Source of the DNA: Cafeteria roenbergensis
Lineage: Eukaryota; Sar; Bigyra; Bicosoecida; Cafeteriaceae
Reading direction: 5' to 3'
Length of the DNA stretch: 64,000 nt
Assembly (NCBI GenBank): GCA_008330645.1
Contig: VLTN01000054.1
Location: 124,001-188,000, forward strand
Part shown: one piece after another, positions 49,852 through 61,723 of the stretch
How positions within the stretch are numbered: the stretch's first letter is position 1
How the letters are laid out: every line of letters begins with the position of its first letter
Program-made: the position numbers and the translations under genes
Notes under the pieces: model-generated
The model's database searches: none
What the model was told of the DNA's origin: nothing
What the model saw: only the letters and a program-made list of their open reading frames with translations

Positions 49852-52800
49852 TCAACACACACGAAGCAGCTCCTGCGGCAGGCCGCTGACCAGCCGAGAC
49901 AGGGCAGCGTGCCCCTCGGCGCCAAGCCGCACAGTGGGGCTGCGGACGCCCTCCCCCCACTCGCTGCTGCTCCGCCGCTTGCGGCCGCTGCGAGCCTGTC
50001 CGCGGCTGCGGCTGCGGCTGCCAGCGCCACGGGGCTGCCCCCCGGTCCTCCCCACCACGGCCTCTGCCAGAGCCCGCGTGCTCATTGGCCGGTGGCGGGC
50101 CTCGGGGGCGCTCTCCCCCGGCGAGCCCGTTCGCCGGCCGCCAGCGCGCGCTGCATGGCCAGCTCTGCCGGATGCGCCGACGGAACCGCGGGCGGCGGCG
50201 CCGGTGTCCGCAAGGGCCCGTGCGCGGGCCTTGGAAACCAGCCGCCGATTGTGCGCAGAGGCGGAGGCGTGCCGGCGGTGTCGAGCGCGCTCGGCGTCGG
50301 TGGCGGCGTGGGCCACAGACGCCCCCTTCGCCAGGGCAGCGGTGGCGCGGCGCTGCGAGGCGGCAGCAGCAGCCGCTCGGCGCTGGGCCACGACGCCTCC
50401 GACGGAGGTGGGGGGGGTCGCCTGCCTGCGCTGGCGGGAGGGTCGGGCGGCCGGGGGCTGCCGGAGGCCGAGGTGTTTGGCGATAGCCAACGGGCCGTCG
50501 TGCAGCCAGTCAGCTGGGGGCGCGTCCTCCGCCTCCCCCTCCTCCCCGTGCTCCGTCGCCGTGGCAGTGGCGGTGGCGGTGGCAGCTGCGGCTGCGGCGC
50601 CTGGGGGCTGGCCGGCGGCAGCATGCTGCCTGTGAGACGACCGCCGCCCAGCTGGGCCTCTGCCTCCGCCGCCCGCGCCTGCGCCTCGCCTGCCAGCGAG
50701 CGCCGCCGTCTCTATAACGCCGTTGATCGTTGCCGCCGCCGCCAGAGCGTCTCTCACCGCCTGAATGGAAGCGGCCTCCCGCAGGAGGGGGAAGCGCGAG
50801 GCACGATCCATGCTGGCGCCCGCAGCGCCGGGCCGCCAGTGGTGGTGATGGGGGGAGCCGACAGCGGCTGGCTCGTGAGAGGCTATGGCAGAGCGCCCGT
50901 TGGACGCGCTCAAGGGCGACGGAGGCGGCTGCGGGGGGCGAGCCGCAACAGGCCGGCCCTCTGACAGGGTGAGGCGACGAACAGGGGTGGCGGCACAGTC
51001 GGCAGCCGCGAGGGCGCGGGCGGCGCGGGAAGGCGATGCGACCGGCGCGGCGGCCGTCGCGCCTGGCCCCGCGCCCAGCGGAGGGGTCATCGATGGGCCC
51101 GGCGCGCCGGGCAGGCGGGCGCCACGTCCCTGCGATGGGCCAGAGGGGTGGGAGGGGCTGCGGTCCGAGCCGGCGCGAGCTCGAGGGGGAGCGGCAGCAG
51201 CATGGCCTGCGGAGCCGGCGTCAGCTTGGCGATGGGAGGTGGGTCTGCCGCAGCCGTCGAGCTCCAGCGAGGCCGTTGCACGGCCGTGTGACGGCGGCGA
51301 GTGCCGGTGGAGCCCGCCGTTCTCACCGCGCGCCGGTGAGGGGGGGTGATCGGCTGCCGCTCGCAGGATACGGGAGCGGAGGTCTTGAGGCGACTCTGGC
51401 ACGTTGCTGTCCGGCATCGCGGCAGAGGCGGGGCGGTGTGGCGGGCTCCGGCTGGCCTCTTGGCGGCCCACACGCGCTGCGTGCCGGCTGGCGTAGCCAT
51501 TTTTCGAATCGCCGTGTGGAGAGCCGACGTTGCGGCGAACACCTCCGTGGGCGGGGCGGCGCCTGCGGGGCAGCTGGCTCTGCTGCTCCTGCATGTGAGG
51601 GCGGCCGTCGGGGCTGTGGAGATCGCGATGATGGTCATGGTCGCGGTGGTGGTCGCGGTGGTGGTCGCGATGGTGCTCACGATGACCATGGTGGTCCCGA
51701 TGGTGGTCCCAATGGTGGTCTTCGTGGCGGTCCGTCGCCTCGAGCGGGCGCCTCGTCCTGCCACGGGGGTGGTCTGCGCCCGATGGGCCACTCGCCGCTT
51801 CACGCGGCACAGCGGCATGGGGAGACGCGTGGACGGGCGCAGCCTGGATTCTGCCACGGCCACCCACTGCCGCGGCCGCCGCCGCCCCGTCCCCGTTCGC
51901 ACCTGCGCGCGCGATCAAGCCGTCGTCCCTCCGCCCCGCGGGCGCTCCAGCAGCAGCACCGCCGGCAGCACCAGCAGCGCCTCTGTCGTTGCCGCCTCTG
52001 GCTGCCTCGGAGCTAGCAGAGCCGGCGCTGTTCGGCGGCGCGGCGCCCGGCGTTTCCGGAAGGCTCGGAGGGGAGCTTACGGGGAGGAGGCTGGGGGCGC
52101 TGCTGGTACGGCCCGTTCCCGTCGTCGCTCCAGCATGCTGCAGCAGAGCGAGCGATCGAGGGTGCGGAGGCGACCCCGGCGGGTGCAGGAGCTGTTCCGA
52201 CGCCCCCGAGTGAGCCTGGCCGGCATGCCCTGCCTGCCCAGCAGACGCGTGCTCCCGCGAATGGCTGCGGCCCGACGCTGGCGCGCCGCTCCCGCTGGTC
52301 GGGTCGGGGCCCTCCACGTCGGCCGCGTATCCGCCCGCCGCAGTGCCAGGGTCCGCCCGCAGCGCGTCGCAGGCTGCAACCCTGCGGCGGATCAGTGCCT
52401 CGGCCGCCTCCACGTCTGCCCACACGCGGTCGGTCCCCGCGCAGACGTCGAGCAGCTCTGCCATTTCCTTGTCCGGCAGAGCCGTCGCCACGGCCGTGAG
52501 GGCGTCGAGCTGCTCCCGAGCGTTGAGGCCTCCCGTGGACGGCATCATGAGGGCGCGGTGGACCTCTGCCCGCGCTCGCGACTCGGGGGAGGCCCGAGGG
52601 GGTGCCCAGGTGAGGGCGGCAGAGCCTCCGCGGGCGACCATCGCAGGCCCTCCCGCGAGGTTCGGGATCGAGGGGGCGCCCACCGTGGCGGCCCCGGTAG
52701 ACGAGGTGCGCGGAATTGCAGCCGGGGCCGGCGGCGGGGCTTGCTCCGGCAGCGGCTGCCGCAGGAGCGGCGCTGCCGCGTGGATGATGGTGGCGCTGAG

Positions 52801-53595
52801 CGGCAGCAAGTCCGCCACGCACAGCAGCGCAGGGGCATGCCCCCCCAGCGCGAAAAAGCCGTCCCACAGAGCTACGATTTCGGCGAGGTCTGCATCCGAC
52901 GTGGGGATGGCGTGAAGCGCGCAGAGGCGGGACCACGCCCAGAACCGCGGCCAGCTCTCGCCCGCGGACATGGAGGCGTCAAGGGCGTCGTGCAGGCTGG
53001 GATCCAGCGCCGAGACGGCCATGCGAACGCACTCGCATGCCTCCACGACGCCCTCGAGCCGCGGGCGCGACCAGGTGGCGGGCAGGAGCCTGCGTCGCAG
53101 AGCGCGCAAGCACCCGAAGGCCGCAGCCTCCGGCATGACCAGCAGCAGAATGCCCGCCACGCGGTTCAGGCCCTGCGCGTACACCGTTAGGTTGGCCCCT
53201 GTCCCGACCCGGCCGTCAGCGGCGCCGGGCCCGAGCTGGGCGAGAGCCTCGGCGAGCTCGCGGTGGTCGTGAGCGCTGGCCTGCAGCACGCGGCGTAGGC
53301 TGTCGTCGGGCACGAGCTTGGCGAAGCTCCGGGCCGTCCGCAGGGTCCTAGGCACGTCGGTCGGGATGAGCTCCGCACCGGGGCAGGGCCCGAGCTCCGC
53401 GAGCCTGGCGAACTCGGCCTCCGACTCGGCCGGCCGAGGGGCGCCCAGCAAAAGCGACCACACCTCGGCCCGAAGCCCGAGCGAGGGGGCGCACGCCGGC
53501 GACCATCGCGGCAGGCCTTCACAGAGCACGAGCCGCCGCAGCTTGGCCGAGCATGCCTCGTCTGCGGGAGGGCCGAGCGGCGAGAGCGGGCGCAT
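49852..53595 (-). CDS. TBC-domain Rab GTPase-activating-like protein with long disordered tail
   Basis: Single exon of about 1,247 residues from ATG 53595; an in-frame start at 53643 is TTG. Residues about 20-310 form a TBC domain: LGLRAEVWSLLLG, then LIPTDVPRT holding the candidate arginine finger, then LTVYAQGLNRVAGILLLVMPE holding the candidate glutamine finger, then DPSLHDAL, PRFWAWSRLCALH and EIVALWDGFFALGG. TBC proteins stimulate GTP hydrolysis by Rab GTPases on endomembranes. The other roughly 900 residues are Ala/Gly/Ser/His-rich and disordered. They include a His-Asp repeat (51,624-51,728) and a basic C-terminal part ending in a short helix (HAALSRLVSGLPQELL). No second domain is recognised. 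The next gene is also a membrane-traffic gene in the same orientation, but 1.1 kb away. Confidence 0.8.
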   Translation of the reverse strand: MRPLSPLGPPADEACSAKLRRLVLCEGLPRWSPACAPSLGLRAEVWSLLLGAPRPAESEAEFARLAELGPCPGAELIPTDVPRTLRTARSFAKLVPDDSLRRVLQASAHDHRELAEALAQLGPGAADGRVGTGANLTVYAQGLNRVAGILLLVMPEAAAFGCLRALRRRLLPATWSRPRLEGVVEACECVRMAVSALDPSLHDALDASMSAGESWPRFWAWSRLCALHAIPTSDADLAEIVALWDGFFALGGHAPALLCVADLLPLSATIIHAAAPLLRQPLPEQAPPPAPAAIPRTSSTGAATVGAPSIPNLAGGPAMVARGGSAALTWAPPRASPESRARAEVHRALMMPSTGGLNAREQLDALTAVATALPDKEMAELLDVCAGTDRVWADVEAAEALIRRRVAACDALRADPGTAAGGYAADVEGPDPTSGSGAPASGRSHSREHASAGQAGHAGQAHSGASEQLLHPPGSPPHPRSLALLQHAGATTGTGRTSSAPSLLPVSSPPSLPETPGAAPPNSAGSASSEAARGGNDRGAAGAAGGAAAGAPAGRRDDGLIARAGANGDGAAAAAAVGGRGRIQAAPVHASPHAAVPREAASGPSGADHPRGRTRRPLEATDRHEDHHWDHHRDHHGHREHHRDHHRDHHRDHDHHRDLHSPDGRPHMQEQQSQLPRRRRPAHGGVRRNVGSPHGDSKNGYASRHAARVGRQEASRSPPHRPASAAMPDSNVPESPQDLRSRILRAAADHPPSPARGENGGLHRHSPPSHGRATASLELDGCGRPTSHRQADAGSAGHAAAAPPRARAGSDRSPSHPSGPSQGRGARLPGAPGPSMTPPLGAGPGATAAAPVASPSRAARALAAADCAATPVRRLTLSEGRPVAARPPQPPPSPLSASNGRSAIASHEPAAVGSPHHHHWRPGAAGASMDRASRFPLLREAASIQAVRDALAAAATINGVIETAALAGRRGAGAGGGGRGPAGRRSSHRQHAAAGQPPGAAAAAATATATATATEHGEEGEAEDAPPADWLHDGPLAIAKHLGLRQPPAARPSRQRRQATPPTSVGGVVAQRRAAAAAASQRRATAALAKGASVAHAATDAERARHRRHASASAHNRRLVSKARARALADTGAAARGSVGASGRAGHAARAGGRRTGSPGESAPEARHRPMSTRALAEAVVGRTGGQPRGAGSRSRSRGQARSGRKRRSSSEWGEGVRSPTVRLGAEGHAALSRLVSGLPQELLRVC
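51624..51728. repeat. Repeat encoding a His/Asp-rich segment
   Basis: Imperfect short repeats of the ATGGTGGTC kind. Read on the minus strand they give repeated DHHRDHH-like units in the tail of the TBC protein. Such clusters can bind divalent metals; that role is inference. Confidence 0.8.
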
Positions 53596-54671
53596 CGAGC
53601 GAAAGGTGACAGGTTTTCCTGGCTTTGACGCGGACGGTGGCAAGCTCGCCCGCTCGCGAGCCTGAGCGCGGGCATCGTGCGCGCGCCCAGCCCCGAGCCC
53701 CTGGGCCCTGGCGAGCGCTGGCGAGCGCCAGCAGGGTCGCAGCGGTGCCCCGCGCGGAGGGCGGGACGCGCCTTGCGGCCCTCAATCGGATTGCCTCACC
53801 CGCTGGCGCTTCGCGCAAGCGGCGGCACGCCGCTGCCACGCGCGCCACCACGTGGGCTTGCTTGCCTGGGTCGTCCACGGGTGCCGGCTCGCCAACGAGC
53901 CCAGCCCCTGCCATCCCCTCGCTCGCAGCGCAACGGGGTGCACGGCCCTACGCCGGCGAGTGCAGGCGAGAGCCGACCTACGTTGCAACCTCCCTCTGCA
54001 GAAGCGCCTGCCGAGACGGCGTAACGTTTTTTAGTGTGTCCAGCTTGCGCGGGCCCACAGCCGCCAGCAGCCGCCTGTGGGGCTCCATACCGGCCCGGCG
54101 GGCCGGCGAGGCACCCGGGCACCCCAGGGGGCTCGGCCGCGGGCGGGCTCGAGTGTAGCCGCTCTCCAGAGCCCAACTGCAGTGGGGAAGCGCGATGCGA
54201 AAGCGCGAAAGGCCAGCTTGCCGGCGGTGGCCCAGGGCCTGTGCTGGCCTGGCAATTCAAGAGCGCAAGGCCCTGGAGCCTTTTCGCGGCCGAGGAGGGC
54301 AGATGGCGCCGGGGTCGCTGCAGCGCCGCCACGTGAGCCGGCCGTCGGCAACTTGCACTCGCAAGTCTCGGTCGCGGCAACGCCAGCAAGCAAGCAAGGC
54401 CTCTCGCCGCTCGAGCGGCACGGGCGCGCGCCCTCCCGCTCCGCACTCCCACACGCAGACTCCCCGGTCGCGGCTGTTTCCTTCGCTGTGGCCCGTGAGC
54501 CAACGGGCGAGCACACGGAATCGTCGTTGCATCCGTTGGGGCTCAAGGCTCCGCTCTCGCGGATCACTCGCTGCCCGCAGAAACGCAACCTGGGGCCGAG
54601 CAGCGCGCGCGTGCGCGCGGCACACACACACACACACACACACAAAGGCAATGGCGCAGCAGCGTCGTGAC
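53596..54671. promoter_or_regulatory. Long intergenic region between the TBC and FYVE genes
   Basis: About 1.08 kb with no convincing gene. The frames that cross it are Arg/Ala/Pro-rich shadows. It must hold the TBC promoter near 53,600-54,000 and the 3' end of the FYVE gene. A CA microsatellite lies at 54,621-54,644. Confidence 0.4.
54621..54644. repeat. (CA)12 microsatellite
   Basis: Twelve CA units, preceded by a mostly alternating purine-pyrimidine GCGCGCGTGCGCGC stretch from about 54,604, just beyond the 3' end of the FYVE gene. Confidence 0.95.
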
Positions 54672-57600
54672 TCAGAACAAGCCAAACACGCGCTGCTTTT
54701 GCTGCGCCTCGAGTTGGCGAGCAGCTGCGGCGAAGTCAGCGCCAGTTGCAGCAAACGCCGCCGATTGGTCCGCCACCTCGCGCAGCCGTTCGCCCTGGGC
54801 CCGGAGCGCAGCGAGGTTGTCCTGCATGACGTCCTGCACCTCGCTCAGCCCGCCAGCGGCCCCGCTGCCTGCGCCGCCGGCGCGGTCTTCGCTGCCGCGC
54901 ATCAGCATTCCGCGCTCCGCAGCCTGCTCGCGCAGCTCGGCAGACTTGCGCGACGCCACTGCCGCCCGCGCTCGTTCCATGTCGCGCTGTCGCTCGCGCT
55001 TGCGGGCCTCCGCTGCCGCCCAGTCTGCCACGAACTTGCAGAAGCAGCCGTCGCAAACGCGGTGGCGCACGGACGCTTCGCTGGCAGGTCCCGCAGCCGC
55101 CGCTGGCCGGCCAGCGCGGCTCATCGCCTCACGGAGAGGGTCTGTGCCTGGGGCAAGCAGGGGGGCCGCCTTGGACGAGCAGTCCCCACAAACGACCGCG
55201 TTGCAGCTTCGGCAGTGGTGGCGCCGCTGGAACCACCCGAACTCGGCCCCGCAGCCCATGCAGCACAAGGCAGCCGAGTCGGGCAGGAAGGCCGCCTGCG
55301 CCAGGGCCACCGCGCACGGCGCCCGCATCATGCGGTGGCACACGCGGAGAGCGCCAGCCTGAGCTGCCGCGGGCGATGCCGAGGGCTGACGAGCGGCCTG
55401 CGCGGCAGGGGGCAGCGGCTCGGCGCCTGGCGCGACAGCGGGCCCGCCGAGCGTGGTGAGCGCCACTCCCTCGGGGGCGGGAAGCGACGAGAAGCGCGCC
55501 GCGGCCGCCTCGAGGTCCAGCCCTGCTGAGGCGAGCAGGGCCGTGGAGGCCGCCCCAGACCCGTCCACCACCGCGGGCCGGGCACCGGCTCCAAGCAAGG
55601 CCGCCACTGCCGCCGCGGCGGCAGGCCGGTCAAGGGGCGCGAGCTCTGCCGCCGCGGCAGGCCCCGTCGAGGCAAGAGCTCTGCCGATGAAGTGGAGCGG
55701 AGTGGAGCAGCCGGTGGAGGGCCCTGAGCGGAGATTGGGCTTGGCTCCGCACTTGAGCAGCAGGGCCACCGCAGCCGGACTCACGCTGCCGAGCCCGGGC
55801 GCCGCAGCGACCAAGGTCCCCGAGGAGGAATCAGCCACCCAGCCCTCCGCCACCGTGCGCAACAGCTGCGCGGTGGCGGCGTCGCCGGTAAGCCCCGCCC
55901 CGCACGCCAGGTGCAGGGCCGTCAGACCGCCGCAGCCCCGACCAGGCACCACCTCTGCGCCCACGGGCAGCAGCAGCGCCGCGCGCTGGTGCTCCTCCGC
56001 CCGCCGCTGGGCCGCGTCCGCCGATCCCGCCTTGGCTGCTGGCGGCGCCGCCGCTTCCGACGACGCTGTTGCTGCTGTCGTTGCTGCTGCCGCTGCTGCT
56101 GCCGCAACTGTCTCAAGGAGCGGCGAGTTGATGTCCACGCCTGCCGCCACCAGGCTGGGCAAGCAAGCCTCGAAGCCGCCGCCCCGCAACACTGCCCGGT
56201 GCGCCAGCGTGACGCCCTCGGCCGCGGAGCCGTCGTCGGCACGGGCCGTGGCGCCGGCAGACACCATCGCATCCACGATCTGGCAAGCCGCCCCAGCATC
56301 GGGCCCGGCAAAGGCCGCTTCCAGCGCGGTTTCACCGAGCAGGTCCGTCGCGCCGCGCCCGCTGACGGGCGACCCGTGCTGGACGAGGGTGGCCACGAGC
56401 GTGGCGTGGCCCTTTCGCGCCGCGAGGCTGACAGCGCAGCGCATGTCCGAGTTCACTGCGGCCACATCACACCCCATTCGGAGCAGCGCGCGTGCGCACT
56501 CCAGCTCGCCCGTCTCCGCGGCGAGCAGCAGAGCCGTGCGCTCTGCGCCGTCCTCGGCGTCGCAGTCCACTTTGCCCCCCAGAAGCGCCGCCTGTGCGCG
56601 TGAGGCGAACGCCTCCGCCCCGTCCATGGCCACGCCGCCGACGACGCCGCCGGCGGCCGCCGCAGCCCCATCGCCGGCCCTCGAACCAGCACCGGCAGGG
56701 CCGGCCGCAGAGCGAGGCAGCGGCGCCGCCAGCCCAAAGCCCGCAGCGTCGTTCTCAGACGCTGCCCACGACCCCGACGAGGCGGCGGGCGCGTGCCCCG
56801 CCGCCGCCGCCGCCACGCCACCACGGGGCTTGTCTCCGGCTGCAAATGCCGCCACCAGCGCCAGCGCTTCGGCGGAACCCTCCGCCGACACCGAGTCGCT
56901 GGCGGCGGCTTCGAGCTCCCGGACCGACAGCTCCAGGGCCGCCACGAGGGAGGCCAGGAAGGGGTCGGCCGCTGCTGCAACCGTGGCTGGGGAGGAGCGA
57001 GCGGCCGCCGCCTCAGCAGGCGTCGGCTGGCCAGCGCCCGAGTCGCCGGACCGCTGAGGCGGTGCGTGCGGGTCCGCCAGCAGCGTCTCGGGGTCGAACA
57101 CGCCGTGCCCCAGCTCGCCGGACGCACGCCCGATGCCCTCCGCCGAGCACAGGCCCAAAACGTCCGCTCGGACAGCAGAACTGAGGGCGACCGCGGCGTG
57201 CAGCGTGTCGTCCCGAAAACGATGCGCAATCAGGCCCGCCACGTCGTGCGCGATGCGGGCCTCCAGGGGGCACGACGAGGCCAGGCACTTGGAGAGGTTG
57301 GCTACCCACCGGCGCTTCTCGGCGGCATTTTGAGCGCGCATGGTCAGCTCGCCGCTCGGCAAGCACAACCTGAACGAAAACGGCTGCGGTGCCGTTGCCG
57401 GCCCAGTCTCCCCGCGGAGAGCAGCGGCCCTGGCCTCGACGAAGGACAGGTCGCAGTCTTCCACCCGGACTGCCGGGGGGACGGCATGGATGGCGGGTCC
57501 CGCGGCGGCGAAGGCCTCGGCAAAGTCAACATGCTGCTTGACGGAGAGCAAGGTGCGATCGCGCTTGCAAACGAGCAGCGCGTCGTTGAGCAGGACGACC

Positions 57601-57992
57601 GCCCGAGCCTTGACGCCGCGGAACACTCCCCCGCTTGCTGCGAGTGACATCAGCGAGCAACTCGGGCCGGGGGGGGCGGGGGGGGGAAAGGGTTGGCTCG
57701 CGTGGGGCAACGAGGCTGGGCGGTGCAACTGGGCGTGGAACTCCGGCCCGCAGGCAGCAGCCGGAGAGCGGCAAGCGCCGCGGTCGTGCTTGCCGCAAGT
57801 GCCTCGCTCCGAGGGGCGCTCACAGAAGTGCACTAGGCCCGCCATCACGACGCGGCGGCCCTTGCGGGCCGGGTCAAACCCCAGAGTGTTGCCGCTCGCC
57901 AACAGCTTGGAGAGGCGGGCCATCGCGGCCGCAGCCTCGGCCTCGTCCACCACATCGTCGCCATGGGACGCAAGCTCCGATATCATGTCCAT
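54672..57992 (-). CDS. PH-ankyrin-FYVE protein with C-terminal SNARE-like motif
   Basis: Two exons, 57992-57824 and 57637-54672, join in phase 1 for about 1,044 residues (start MDMISELASHG). The 186-base intron splits a PH domain: GRRVVMAGLVHF is followed after splicing by SGGVFRGVKARAVVLLNDALLVCK, SFRLCLPSGELTMRA and KRRWVANLSKCL. Ankyrin repeats span residues about 410-750 (ERTALLLAAETGELECARALL, GGLTALHLACGAG). A FYVE zinc finger follows at about 845-925: CMGCGAEFGWF, the PI3P-binding RRHHCRSC, VCGDC and VCDGC. A basic coiled coil then leads to about 58 C-terminal residues, EVQDVMQDNLAALRAQGERL and on to ARQLE. These show heptad spacing and an AQGERL segment matching the zero-layer region of SNAP-25-type Q-SNAREs. 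There is no transmembrane anchor; FYVE could anchor it to endosomes. The SNARE reading is inference. Confidence 0.85.
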   Translation of the reverse strand: MDMISELASHGDDVVDEAEAAAAMARLSKLLASGNTLGFDPARKGRRVVMAGLVHFCERPSERGTCGKHDRGACRSPAAACGPEFHAQLHRPASLPHASQPFPPPAPPGPSCSLMSLAASGGVFRGVKARAVVLLNDALLVCKRDRTLLSVKQHVDFAEAFAAAGPAIHAVPPAVRVEDCDLSFVEARAAALRGETGPATAPQPFSFRLCLPSGELTMRAQNAAEKRRWVANLSKCLASSCPLEARIAHDVAGLIAHRFRDDTLHAAVALSSAVRADVLGLCSAEGIGRASGELGHGVFDPETLLADPHAPPQRSGDSGAGQPTPAEAAAARSSPATVAAAADPFLASLVAALELSVRELEAAASDSVSAEGSAEALALVAAFAAGDKPRGGVAAAAAGHAPAASSGSWAASENDAAGFGLAAPLPRSAAGPAGAGSRAGDGAAAAAGGVVGGVAMDGAEAFASRAQAALLGGKVDCDAEDGAERTALLLAAETGELECARALLRMGCDVAAVNSDMRCAVSLAARKGHATLVATLVQHGSPVSGRGATDLLGETALEAAFAGPDAGAACQIVDAMVSAGATARADDGSAAEGVTLAHRAVLRGGGFEACLPSLVAAGVDINSPLLETVAAAAAAAATTAATASSEAAAPPAAKAGSADAAQRRAEEHQRAALLLPVGAEVVPGRGCGGLTALHLACGAGLTGDAATAQLLRTVAEGWVADSSSGTLVAAAPGLGSVSPAAVALLLKCGAKPNLRSGPSTGCSTPLHFIGRALASTGPAAAAELAPLDRPAAAAAVAALLGAGARPAVVDGSGAASTALLASAGLDLEAAAARFSSLPAPEGVALTTLGGPAVAPGAEPLPPAAQAARQPSASPAAAQAGALRVCHRMMRAPCAVALAQAAFLPDSAALCCMGCGAEFGWFQRRHHCRSCNAVVCGDCSSKAAPLLAPGTDPLREAMSRAGRPAAAAGPASEASVRHRVCDGCFCKFVADWAAAEARKRERQRDMERARAAVASRKSAELREQAAERGMLMRGSEDRAGGAGSGAAGGLSEVQDVMQDNLAALRAQGERLREVADQSAAFAATGADFAAAARQLEAQQKQRVFGLF

Positions 57993-58187
57993 GGCTCCAG
58001 GTCTTGGGTCGCTTGGGTCCCCTGGGCCACGATCTGGCAACCTCGGGGTGCCGAAACGTTGCGCAGGCCAGTGTTCGATTCGCATGTTTGCTTGAGACAT
58101 GCATTGGCGAACAAGGCCGCCCAGGCGGGCCGCACACCGGCCAGGCTCCCGTCGCACCAGCTCCAAGAAGGAAGCACACGCGCCAAG
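57993..58187. promoter_or_regulatory. Short divergent promoter region
   Basis: Only 195 bases lie between the start codons of the FYVE gene (minus) and the PRXL2-like gene (plus). The region is AT-richer around 58,070-58,115. No named element is recognised. Confidence 0.4.
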
Positions 58188-59281
58188 ATGTCCCGGTCCG
58201 CCACTCGCGCGCTCACCTCCGTCCGAAGGCTCGGGTTCGTCGCGACGGCAGCCGCGGCAGCTGCGATGCCCTCGTTCGCCCACGCTGCTGCCGCCGGCTC
58301 TTCGCGCAGCGCTTCTTCTTCCGCTGCCAGCGCCACCCCCTTCGCGTGCGAGCGTAAGGACGTCGCCCCGGGCCGAAAAGTGGGCGCCACAGGGCTCCCG
58401 ATGGACGGGCCCGACGGCAAGAACGCTGCTGACGTGTTGCAGTGAGATCAGGTTCCGCACGCAGGGTCCGTCACTGCCGGCCGGCCCGCCAGAGTCGCGC
58501 GTGCTTGCTGATGCAGCCAGCCGCACTCAAACGGGATATTTCGTGATGGCCGGCGAGCCTCCTGGTGGCCGGGAGGGCGTCTGTCGGCAGGCTCGGCTGC
58601 GCGTCGCGCGGCGTGGCGTTGCTGACCGCACGGCCGTCGCCCCCCTGCACCGCTTAGCTGTCTCGCAGCGACATCCGCGTGACGGACCCCGCAACCGGCA
58701 AGCAGACCGCGCCCCTTGGCGAGCTCATCGACGGAGGCGGCCCCGTGTTGCTGCACCTGGTCCGGCGATTCGGCTGCCCGCTCTGTCGCGAGGCCGCTGC
58801 CGATCTCAGCACCATGGCGGGCGAGGTCCAGGCCGCAGGCGGCCGCCTCGTTGCCATCGGCTGCCAGACCGAAGGGTTGGAGGAGTTCGTGGAAGGGTCC
58901 TTCTTCGCAGGCCCCGTGTGGGTCGACGCGGACAAGCTGGCCTTCTCCGCCCTCAAGCTGCACCGCTCGGGCCTGCACGACGGATACGGCTTCCTGGACC
59001 CAGCCTCGTGGTCGGCCATGTGGCGCTCGTACCAGCGCGGGGTGCCGGGGGACCTCAAGGGTGATGGCTTCCAGATGGGCGGAACGTTCCTTTTCGTGGG
59101 AGGCCGCTGCGTGTACGACCACCGCATGACGTCACACGGCGACAAGCCTGACGTCGACGAGATCGAGGCCGCGCTCAGGACAGCACTGGCCGCGTCCAAG
59201 GTGACGGCAGGGCCCGCTGCAGCCGCGTCCGGCGTCGCTGGGTCTGAGGCTGCCACGGCGGGCGACTCCCCGCGGGCATGA
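58188..59281 (+). CDS. Thioredoxin-fold PRXL2/prostamide synthase-like protein, probably organellar
   Basis: Redox protein of the AhpC/TSA-2 (FAM213/PRXL2) group. Two exons, 58188-58441 and 58669-59281, join in phase 2 for about 288 residues. Exon 1 encodes a basic, Ala/Ser-rich leader (MSRSATRALTSVRRLGFVA and on) that looks like a mitochondrial or other organellar targeting sequence, then ADVL. After splicing comes HDIRVTDPATG. The thioredoxin fold shows LLHLVRRFGCPLCREAA with a CxxC motif, LVAIGCQTEGLEEF, FAGPVWVDADKLAF and GGTFLFVGGRCVYDHR near the end of the fold. In the family the CxxC reduces prostaglandin- or peroxide-type substrates; the substrate here is unknown. The tail is Ala/Ser-rich. 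Donor is GTGAGA and acceptor TCTCGCAG. Confidence 0.88.
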
Positions 59282-59485: not shown

Positions 59486-61723
59486 TCAGTCCATCATCTC
59501 GATGTCGTCGTCTGCCGGCGAGACCGCCGCGCTGGCAGCCGCGTGAGCCGGCATGGGACCGGGGGGCGGGGCAGATGCCGCAGGCACCGCGCCGGACAGC
59601 CCAGCAGCGCCGCCTGCACTTGCAGCAGCGCCGCCTGCACTTGCAGCAGCGCCAGCTCCGGTCACCGCGCCTGCGCCTGAACTTGCAGCAGCGCCGCCTG
59701 CACTTGCAGCAGCGCCTGCGCCCGCGCCCGCGCCTGCGCCCGCGCCGCTGTCCCCGTCCCACTTTGCCGCGTCCCTGGCCGGGTCGAGGTGCGCCTTGTC
59801 CCCGCGGATGACGTCACGGAGGCGCTCCTCGCGCGCCGCCCGGAGAAACTCGCTCTCAGGCATGTCCGGGAGCGGCCCCGAGGAGGCCACGGACTCCGCG
59901 GCGCTGGCTGCGTCGGCGGTGCTGGCGCCGCCTGCGCCGGCTCTGCGCCCTGCGGCGGTTTCCAGGAACGCTCTTCGCCCGATCCCAGCGGGCGCCTGCG
60001 AGTAAGCCCGCACGGCCGCCTCGCTGCCGCTGCGGCAGGGCTCGAGCACGTGTTCGGCCTCGACGTCAGCGCCTGCGCGCAGGGTTCCGGGGCCGCTTGT
60101 GGCAGCCGGCGGCTCGCCGTCCGCCGCGCCTGCCAGCGGTGCGACCGCTCCAAGCGGGGCGGGAACAGCGGCGCTCAGCGGGGGGGAGTCCGCGGTCTTG
60201 CTCTCAGTCATGACCCCAGGCCTCGATGTTGGCGTTGGCGCAGCAGCGCCACCGGCACCGGCAGCAGCGCCACCGGCACCGGCAGCAGCGCCACCGGCAC
60301 CGGCAGCAGCACCACCGGCACCGGCAGCAGCGCTCGCTGCCGCTGCTCCCGCCGCCTCGGCGGCCCTGCTGGCCTGAACAAACGCCTCTGCAGGCAGCGG
60401 CGTCGTCTCCCATGGGAGGGCCCCCTCAGGGCCCCTGGCTTCCCGCTCCGCCGCAGTGGCGACTGCGGTAGCTGCCTCGGCTGACTCCAGGTACGCCTCT
60501 GTGCGGGCCTCCGTCTCCCCCGGAGCGGCGTGGCTGCGAACCATGGCCTCGAAGGCCCGAAAATTCCGCTCATCCGCCTCTCGCGCCCGCTGCTTCTGGG
60601 CGGCGATGGTTGCCCGCTCTCGCGCCGCCGCCTCCTTGGAGCCTCCCGCCTTCATCCCGGCCGCCCAAGCCGTCACCCTCTCCCTCTCCTCATCGAACAC
60701 GGGCCTGTCGTCCAGGAAGCGAAGCCCCTCCAGCCTGGAGATGACCGTTTTGCGGTAGTGACGGATCCGCTTCACCACGGGGTTGCCCTGCAGGTACAGC
60801 ACTCGGAGGGATGGCATCGCCGCCAGCACGTCCAGCACCGCGGGGTCGTCGATGATGTTGCCCTTGAGGTCGAGGCAGGCGAGCGCAGGCAAGTCCGCGA
60901 CGGCGCGGATGTCCTCGGCCGTCTCGAGCTGGTTGTTGGCGATGGTGAGCGTCTGCGCGCACGGGACATGCAGCGAGGAAGCCAAAGGTATGTGCATGAG
61001 GGGGGAGGGGGCGGTAGGCGTCGCGGAAGCGGCCGGGTCGACGGGCAAGCGCGCAGCGGCGGGCGGCGCGGTTGCCTTGAAGCGCCGCTCGGCGCCAGGC
61101 TGACCTCGAGCTTGGTGAGCGGGCTCAGCCCCTCGATGCGGTCGATGCAGTTGTCCGACAGGTTCAGCTGGGTCAGGTCGACGAGGTGCTCGAGGTTCTC
61201 GATTCGGGCGATGGCATTTTCGTGCAGCATAAGGGCGCGCAGGGACGTTTGAGCCTCGAGCCCCTCGATTCGCCGCAGCCCATTGGCCTCCAGCCACAGG
61301 ACCTGCGAGCACGAGTTTTCGCAAGCAATTCGCACGTAATACTTGACGGGAGGGGGCGCAGGAGGCGCTCGTGCTCGCAAACGCGCGCCTCGCAGAGCGG
61401 CAACCGACCCGTCAACGCTCGAATCGAATTCCGCCGACGCCGCTGTCCCGGAGGCGAACGCAAAGCACGACCCTCACCTTGAGGCCGGTGTACGGCTCCA
61501 GGTTTTCGATTTTTGCGAAGCCCTGCAGACAAGCGTGGGAAGCAGCGCCCGGGAGGCAGGTTGTCGGTGGTGCGGGAATGCACAGCGCGGAGCCTTTGGG
61601 CGCCGCTGCCCCGCCGCCGGAGCTCACCTTGTGGTGCAGGTACAGCACATCGTTCAGGTATGCCGTGCCGTAGCCCTTGCAGTCTTGGCAGATTTTCTTG
61701 ATCGCGCCCGGGGTCATCTCCAT
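59486..61723 (-). CDS. DNAAF1: Dynein axonemal assembly factor 1 (LRRC50/ODA7), leucine-rich repeat protein
   Basis: Cytoplasmic factor needed to preassemble ciliary dynein arms. Four exons, all phase 0: 61723-61628, 61522-61478, 61302-61105 and 60952-59486, about 601 residues. The spliced N-terminus follows the family closely: IKKICQDCKGYGTAYLNDVLYLHHK, then GFAKIENLEPYTGLK, then VLWLEANGLRRIEGLE, ALMLHENAIARIENLE, NLSDNCIDRIEGL, and in exon 4 NQLETAEDI, LDLKGNIIDDP, VLYLQGNPVVK and RFLDDRPVFDEERERV. The Ala/Gly-rich C-terminal half contains two 21-base repeat arrays and ends IEMMD. The third donor is GTCAGC, weaker than the others (GTGAGC, GTGAGG). It is separated by 115 bases from the divergent ligase IV gene. 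Confidence 0.94.
59602..59720. repeat. 21-base repeat array in the DNAAF1 tail
   Basis: Interrupted copies of a 21-base unit (near CAGCAGCGCCGCCTGCACTTG) coding Ala/Gly/Ser-rich heptads on the minus strand, followed by a CGCGCC-rich run. Confidence 0.8.
60241..60335. repeat. Second 21-base repeat array in DNAAF1
   Basis: Four close copies of a 21-base unit encoding Ala-Ala-Gly-Ala-Gly-Gly-Ala heptads on the minus strand. The unit length matches the array at 59,602-59,720, but the base sequence differs. Confidence 0.85.

Follow-up and report, generated by a model that had tools for sequence, protein, structure and literature searches.

What kind of SNARE motif, if any, ends a protein that otherwise carries PH, ankyrin and FYVE domains, and what would such a protein do at a membrane? 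The question is raised by a gene on the minus strand of a 64,000-nucleotide stretch of the Cafeteria roenbergensis genome (GenBank assembly GCA_008330645.1, contig VLTN01000054.1, positions 124,001 to 188,000), which is referred to here as the window. A sequence-only reading of the gene had described its product as a FYVE protein ending in a Q-SNARE-like motif, similar to the Qb motifs of the SNAP-25 type and possibly acting as a tail-less, lipid-anchored SNARE. The analysis described here indicates, from sequence comparison, that the product is an R-SNARE-derived, tail-less SNARE-motif protein with Gln in place of Arg at the zero layer. As predicted from the gene, the PH-ankyrin-FYVE-SNARE architecture is real and unusual, and the product is called the FYVE-SNARE protein below.

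Class and register of the SNARE motif

The gene and the features of its C-terminal end that bear on the class of the motif are as follows.

54672..57992, minus strand: FYVE-SNARE gene, with its ATG at 57992, stop codon at 54674-54672 and exons 57992-57824 and 57637-54672; 1044 residues when spliced
54699..54848, minus strand: synaptobrevin-class SNARE motif, assigned with PF00957, a VAMP4 alignment, an R-SNARE profile with shuffles and a single helix in AlphaFold2 (AF2)
54795..54797, minus strand: zero-layer codon CAG (Gln), residue 1004 of the spliced protein; Arg in VAMP4 and, among the genome's other five R-SNAREs, in four
54672..54698, minus strand: C-terminal end past the Pfam match, finishing in QRVFGLF and the stop, with no membrane span and no prenylation Cys

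Synaptobrevin (PF00957) is the sole SNARE family matched when the tail alone is compared with Pfam up to E = 10, at 29.4 bits against a cut-off of 26.4. The other match of the tail is to FBF1 (E 0.1), and such searches up to E = 10 are limited by the HMMER filters, which discard most matches above E ~0.1. A PF00957 search of the genome (36,303,456 bases in 167 contigs) gives the motif 29.1 bits, and the same family finds sub-cut-off matches in three of 14 prokaryote control genomes. Among PDB sequences, the tail matches VAMP4 best (E 1.4e-4), with Snc1 (0.14) and Nyv1 (0.34) next, two matches that would mean little on their own. Eleven of the 13 PDB sequences matched up to E = 10 are synaptobrevin-type and two are unrelated, with no SNAP-25 or tomosyn chain among them.

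When a profile is trained on the genome's other five R-SNAREs, with the FYVE gene excluded, the tail scores 25.1 bits; the test is partly dependent on Pfam, PF00957 having been used to find the training set. From 5,000 plain and 5,000 heptad-preserving shuffles, 9,971 were scored (4,977 and 4,994, respectively), and none reaches the tail, the top score being 13.5. Under the same profile none of the eight Q-SNARE motifs used from the genome exceeds 4.2 bits, and the reversed tail and the protein's own linker score 3.7 and 2.4 bits, respectively. Of 5,246 translated background pieces from the window and the loci, the 16 that score highest all belong to R-SNARE frames or the FYVE gene. A chance coiled coil is ruled out by these scores; the comparison of a SNARE profile with generic coiled coils had been set in advance as the test of the SNARE claim, and the motif came through it.

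A Qb SNARE of the SNAP-25 type, fused to FYVE, would have Gln at the zero layer, as is found here. However, up to E = 10 the tail matches neither a Q-SNARE family in Pfam nor a SNAP-25 chain in the PDB, and under a Qa profile it scores 6.6 bits, which is background (an unrelated piece reaches 7.1), versus 26.3 under the R profile in the same comparison; no Qb or Qc profile was built. The SNAP-25-type assignment was ruled out on the Pfam, PDB and Qa-profile results, and a Qb motif in this protein is considered very improbable. By these comparisons the motif belongs to the synaptobrevin (R-SNARE) lineage, and the tail is, on present assignment, a divergent member of that family. Modeled by AF2 with no alignment, the motif is predicted as a single helix with values of the predicted local distance difference test (pLDDT) of 70, 91, 93, 85, 86, 82 and 65 in successive 10-residue blocks; the model of the FYVE-to-end fragment is poor overall (mean pLDDT 63.7), with the FYVE domain unmodeled.

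The alignment with VAMP4 runs without gaps and sets VIERGERL opposite LRAQGERL. The shared GERL fixes the register, so that Gln lies at the zero layer, opposite the Arg of VAMP4. An ungapped assignment is possible for layers -5 to +8, which read L V M N L Q L V S F G F A L, with Gly at +5; in the VAMP7-like locus L009 of the same genome these layers are L V M N V R I L S L A F A L. Layers -7 and -6 lie within a Gly/Ala linker. The Gln codon, CAG, is a single base from the Arg codon CGG.

No membrane span is predicted in the tail, where the best 19-residue hydropathy is 0.81. The R-SNARE loci L009, L010, L011 and L014 have C-terminal spans with values of 2.86, 3.21, 2.23 and 2.33, respectively, and the remaining one, the Ykt6-like L012, has a C-terminal CCAVM instead of a span. 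The usual hydropathy mark for a membrane span is 1.6. Elsewhere in the unspliced protein the maximum over 19-residue windows is 1.74, in the Ala-rich ankyrin region. Just beyond the stop, the three downstream frames (54740-53644) hold windows of 1.6-1.8, with a TG repeat read as CVCV. These windows pass the 1.6 mark but fall below the 2.2-3.2 of the genuine SNARE spans in the genome. No GT[AG]AG donor is present in 54740-54341 (other donor types were not sought), and a membrane span spliced onto the tail is not likely.

The sequence-only reading had the SNARE motif, the zero-layer Gln and the lack of a predicted span right, and what does not hold is the similarity to SNAP-25-type Qb motifs. 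Its term Q-SNARE-like fits the zero-layer residue only, the similarity of the motif being synaptobrevin-class, and its tail-less SNARE with a lipid-type anchor is supported as regards phosphoinositide-binding-type domains joined to a C-terminal motif but not as a Qb SNARE. With the VAMP4/synaptobrevin family the protein shares the sequence of the motif and layers -5 to +8. It differs in having Gln for Arg, no span, PH, ankyrin and FYVE domains in front, and no match to the longin family in Pfam. Since the zero-layer Arg and the anchor are both missing, the protein is not filed as an R-SNARE proper. The tail is present as a single copy in the genome, and no relatives of the protein were found in viral contigs.

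Zero-layer residues across the genome

The six places matched by PF00957 in the genome have Arg at the zero layer in L009, L011, L012 and L014, Asn in the Sec22-like L010 and Gln in the FYVE gene. L010 (G000:C41:46885-47139) is an R-SNARE that was named Sec22-like by eye. In the case of the Q-type motifs, PF05739 and PF12352 together find ten places up to E = 10, of which eight were used; L021, which is not SNARE-like, and L024, a 27-residue partial match with an unreadable zero layer, were set aside. L015, L016, L017 and L022 are above the Pfam cut-off. L018, L019, L020 and L023 are below it and were taken by eye because each has heptads and a hydrophobic stretch at the C terminus; for L019, the PDB matches were a further reason. 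The zero layers of L023, the Qc-like L018 and the Qb-like L022 were read by eye. Gln is found at the zero layer in seven of the eight motifs, including the four Qa-type motifs besides L017, and Arg is found only in L017.

G000:C72:47806-47922, minus strand: L017, a syntaxin with zero-layer Arg (CGC) in an intron-split motif, assigned with PF05739 and a PDB alignment

PF05739 gives L017 46.0 bits on hand-joined exons and 30.8 bits on the last exon. Its best structure is syntaxin-1A (E 1.8e-8), with LVEAR opposite LVESQ and Arg at the position of the zero-layer Gln. At least two substitutions separate CGC from any Gln codon, so a single wrong base does not explain the residue. The naming of L017 as a plasma-membrane syntaxin was dropped, because a syntaxin-1 chain comes first for L016, L017 and L019 alike (3/3) and the match is therefore not discriminating. 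In total, three of 14 motifs depart from the zero-layer rule, and two of the departures are reciprocal (Arg in L017, Gln in the FYVE gene). Because exons were searched one at a time, the number of motifs counted is a minimum.

A proposed regulatory SNARE and the alternatives to it

The reading favored here, with a probability of roughly 0.5, is that the protein is a regulatory SNARE without a tail anchor, recruited by phosphatidylinositol 3-phosphate (PI3P) and tomosyn-like in its action. It builds on the observed domains, class of motif, zero-layer Gln and absence of a predicted span in the tail. The FYVE and PH domains would position the protein at endosome- or phagosome-type membranes, in an organism that is a bacterivore living by phagocytosis. 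The ankyrin repeats would engage a partner, and the R-lineage helix at the C terminus would join a Q-SNARE bundle at the R position. Because of the zero-layer Gln, the lack of a span and the two missing first layers, the resulting bundle would be weaker and non-fusogenic alone, so that Q-SNAREs would be held or primed by the protein until its place was taken by a genuine R-SNARE. The tail itself supports a regulatory role in having neither a span nor a prenylation Cys, versus a span in four of the five other R-SNARE frames and CCAVM in the fifth.

Known proteins offer partial likenesses. Amisyn has a PH domain, tomosyn and amisyn both have Arg at the zero layer, and neither is known to have a FYVE domain or ankyrin repeats. 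Tomosyn has been reported to be a regulatory R-SNARE, one that cannot be fusogenic owing to its missing anchor (PMC2639358). Like the FYVE-SNARE protein, it has an R-type SNARE motif and no membrane anchor; unlike it, the tomosyn homologues have beta-propellers (PMC2639358). Fly Ykt6 with its zero-layer Arg changed to Gln is functional, and a regulatory role with displacement by Vamp7 has been proposed (PMC5937789). The kinetoplastid SynPM is another SNARE without a span (PMC5399786).

The comparison with Vam7 made in the sequence-only reading holds for membrane recruitment: Vam7 is a soluble SNARE held at the membrane by a PI3P-binding domain (PMC2639358), and the FYVE-SNARE protein would bind in a like manner. 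It does not extend to class, as Vam7 is a Qc SNARE with a PX domain rather than an R-lineage protein with FYVE, and tomosyn is closer in kind. Vam7 has been termed a fungal invention (PMC2639358). If a synaptobrevin-class motif is tethered through FYVE here, soluble SNAREs held by PI3P would have arisen twice, the fungal PX-SNARE being the other case.

Several points weigh against the regulatory reading. The motif is divergent: PF00957 gives the whole protein 23.2 bits, below the cut-off of 26.4, and the best PDB chain gives the tail 25.6 bits versus 56.3 bits for the VAMP7-like L009, which was queried with its span. Vam7 is active in fusion even though it has no span (PMC2639358), so that a missing span is no proof of a regulatory role. 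The change of Arg to Gln in yeast Ykt6 is lethal (cited in PMC5937789), and the fly Ykt6 result is therefore not general. Finally, the genome also encodes a Qa motif bearing Arg, which would be compatible with a functional swapped complex.

Such a complex would be a natural zero-layer swap, in which the FYVE-SNARE protein (R lineage, Gln) and the L017 syntaxin (Qa, Arg) join ordinary Qb and Qc SNAREs to restore the ratio of three Gln to one Arg (3Q:1R); it would be fusion-competent and would disfavor the usual partners. This reading is favored by the Arg of L017, which stands at the zero-layer Gln of syntaxin-1A when four other Qa-type motifs keep Gln and which one wrong base cannot account for. 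There is also experimental precedent. Yeast with Sso1-Q224R and Snc2-R52Q has a growth rate equal to that of the SSO1 sso2-delta control, and vam7-Q284R is compensated by nyv1-R192Q or ykt6-R165Q (PMC11091695); similarly, Syx17 with Gln changed to Arg is rescued by Vamp7 with Arg changed to Gln (cited in PMC5937789). The Sso1 and Snc2 pair resembles L017 and the FYVE gene in combining a Qa Arg with an R-SNARE Gln (PMC11091695), but it is engineered, whereas both residues are natural in Cafeteria roenbergensis, where the pairing is hypothetical. Against a swap, the meeting of the FYVE-SNARE protein and L017 is a supposition, the FYVE-SNARE protein has no span, and its CAG is only one base from an Arg codon. 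The Asn of the Sec22-like L010 also counts against it, as relaxed constraint may explain all three departures in the census. Some single changes are tolerated uncompensated, including replacement of Arg by Gln in the exocytic R-SNARE of yeast and of Gln by Arg in a worm syntaxin, and across systems single zero-layer changes are tolerated in some and lethal in others (both cited in PMC5937789). On balance a swap seems unlikely. A stronger form of it is judged decidedly unlikely, namely, a private SNARE channel in which Arg was acquired by a syntaxin and Gln by a synaptobrevin-derived protein anchored through FYVE, so that the two restore 3Q:1R only together and are insulated as a pair from other SNAREs at a PI3P-marked membrane. 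The 3Q:1R rule has so far been tested by engineered swaps, and a natural swap of both halves, if true, would be a test case run by evolution.

The motif could instead be degenerate and kept as a coiled coil only, with the protein serving as a PI3P-binding scaffold or tether outside SNARE bundles. The zero-layer Gln, layers -7 and -6 falling in the Gly/Ala linker, the Gly at +5, an Ala-rich face and the sub-cut-off score of the whole protein all fit this account. Wider loss of layers would be expected of a motif in decay, however, so the gapless run from -5 to +8 speaks against degeneration, as does a score well above the heptad-preserving shuffles, and this account is regarded as doubtful. Phytolongins resemble the FYVE-SNARE protein in being of R-SNARE lineage without a conserved zero-layer Arg; they differ in being longin-domain proteins, described as non-SNARE and with no FYVE domain reported for them there (PMC2779197).

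Domain architecture, gene model and neighboring genes

In the spliced protein the order is PH domain, ankyrin repeats, FYVE finger, charged helical linker and C-terminal SNARE motif.

57282..57848, minus strand: PH domain, interrupted by the intron (PF00169, residues 49-175 of the spliced protein); above the cut-off only if spliced
57638..57823, minus strand: probable in-frame intron of 186 nt, GTGAGC...CACTCGCAG, within the PH domain; PF00169 rises on its removal
56370..56585, minus strand: ankyrin repeats, the best Ank_2 stretch of two that passed (48.8 bits, cut-off 27.3)
55038..55283, minus strand: FYVE zinc finger (Pfam 55.4 bits, cut-off 27.8)
54849..55037, minus strand: charged helical linker with a Gly/Ala-rich break at its end, in which layers -7 and -6 would fall; AF2 helix at 79-145 of the fragment, of low confidence before residue 88

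The FYVE finger retains RRHHCR and RVC, has FLPD at the WxxD position, where F replaces the usual W, and carries a long loop ahead of RVC; RRHHCR, RVC and WxxD are the usual FYVE motifs. From these residues we infer that the finger may bind PI3P. No PX domain was matched in the protein with Pfam.

The minus-strand frame at 54672-58526 holds 1284 open codons, and translation from the ATG at 57992 without splicing gives 1106 residues. Excision of the 186-nt interval lifts PF00169 from 19.1 to 25.8 bits, just above the cut-off of 25.1, and the GT-AG interval 57823-57638 is probably an intron. Its removal also reproduces the 1044-residue numbering of the sequence-only reading, whose FYVE and PH domains are both borne out. 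The true start is uncertain because the frame is open upstream of the ATG to 58526, and another start or a 5' exon is possible. At 57983-58420 of the window, on the minus strand, an upstream frame in another phase has a protein-like composition and a GTGAGC site, and it may be a 5' exon; the 85 residues tried from the upstream stretch have no Pfam match up to E = 1. The assembly was polished using PacBio and Illumina reads (PMC6972860).

The architecture stands alone in the genome searched. Eight FYVE places and six PF00957 places overlap in the FYVE-SNARE gene only, and the 18 PX places found have no overlap with SNARE places. A survey from 2010 that covers proteins with FYVE or PX domains names, in its available text, PH and ankyrin among FYVE partners and SNARE among PX partners only (PMC2837644). 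In the literature searched, no FYVE-SNARE protein appeared in the titles and abstract openings of the matches listed, and exact-phrase searching gave no paper, a scope that leaves out most subscription journals, so absence from print is not established. Among other FYVE frames, described within the extent of their loci and with L008 outside the domain scan, L003 has FYVE followed by PH_BEACH and BEACH, L004 has an SCP2 match, FYVE and an ABC1 kinase domain, and L007 has FYVE followed by ankyrin repeats.

Downstream, the first long frame on the strand of the FYVE gene, at 49852-53643 (minus), has a RabGAP-TBC domain (51.1 bits) and is a membrane-traffic neighbor. On the other side, 58679-59281 (plus), divergent from the FYVE gene, encodes an antioxidant-type protein matched by AhpC-TSA_2 (76 bits), and 59486-61324 (minus) encodes a leucine-rich-repeat protein matched by LRR_9 (37.4 bits).

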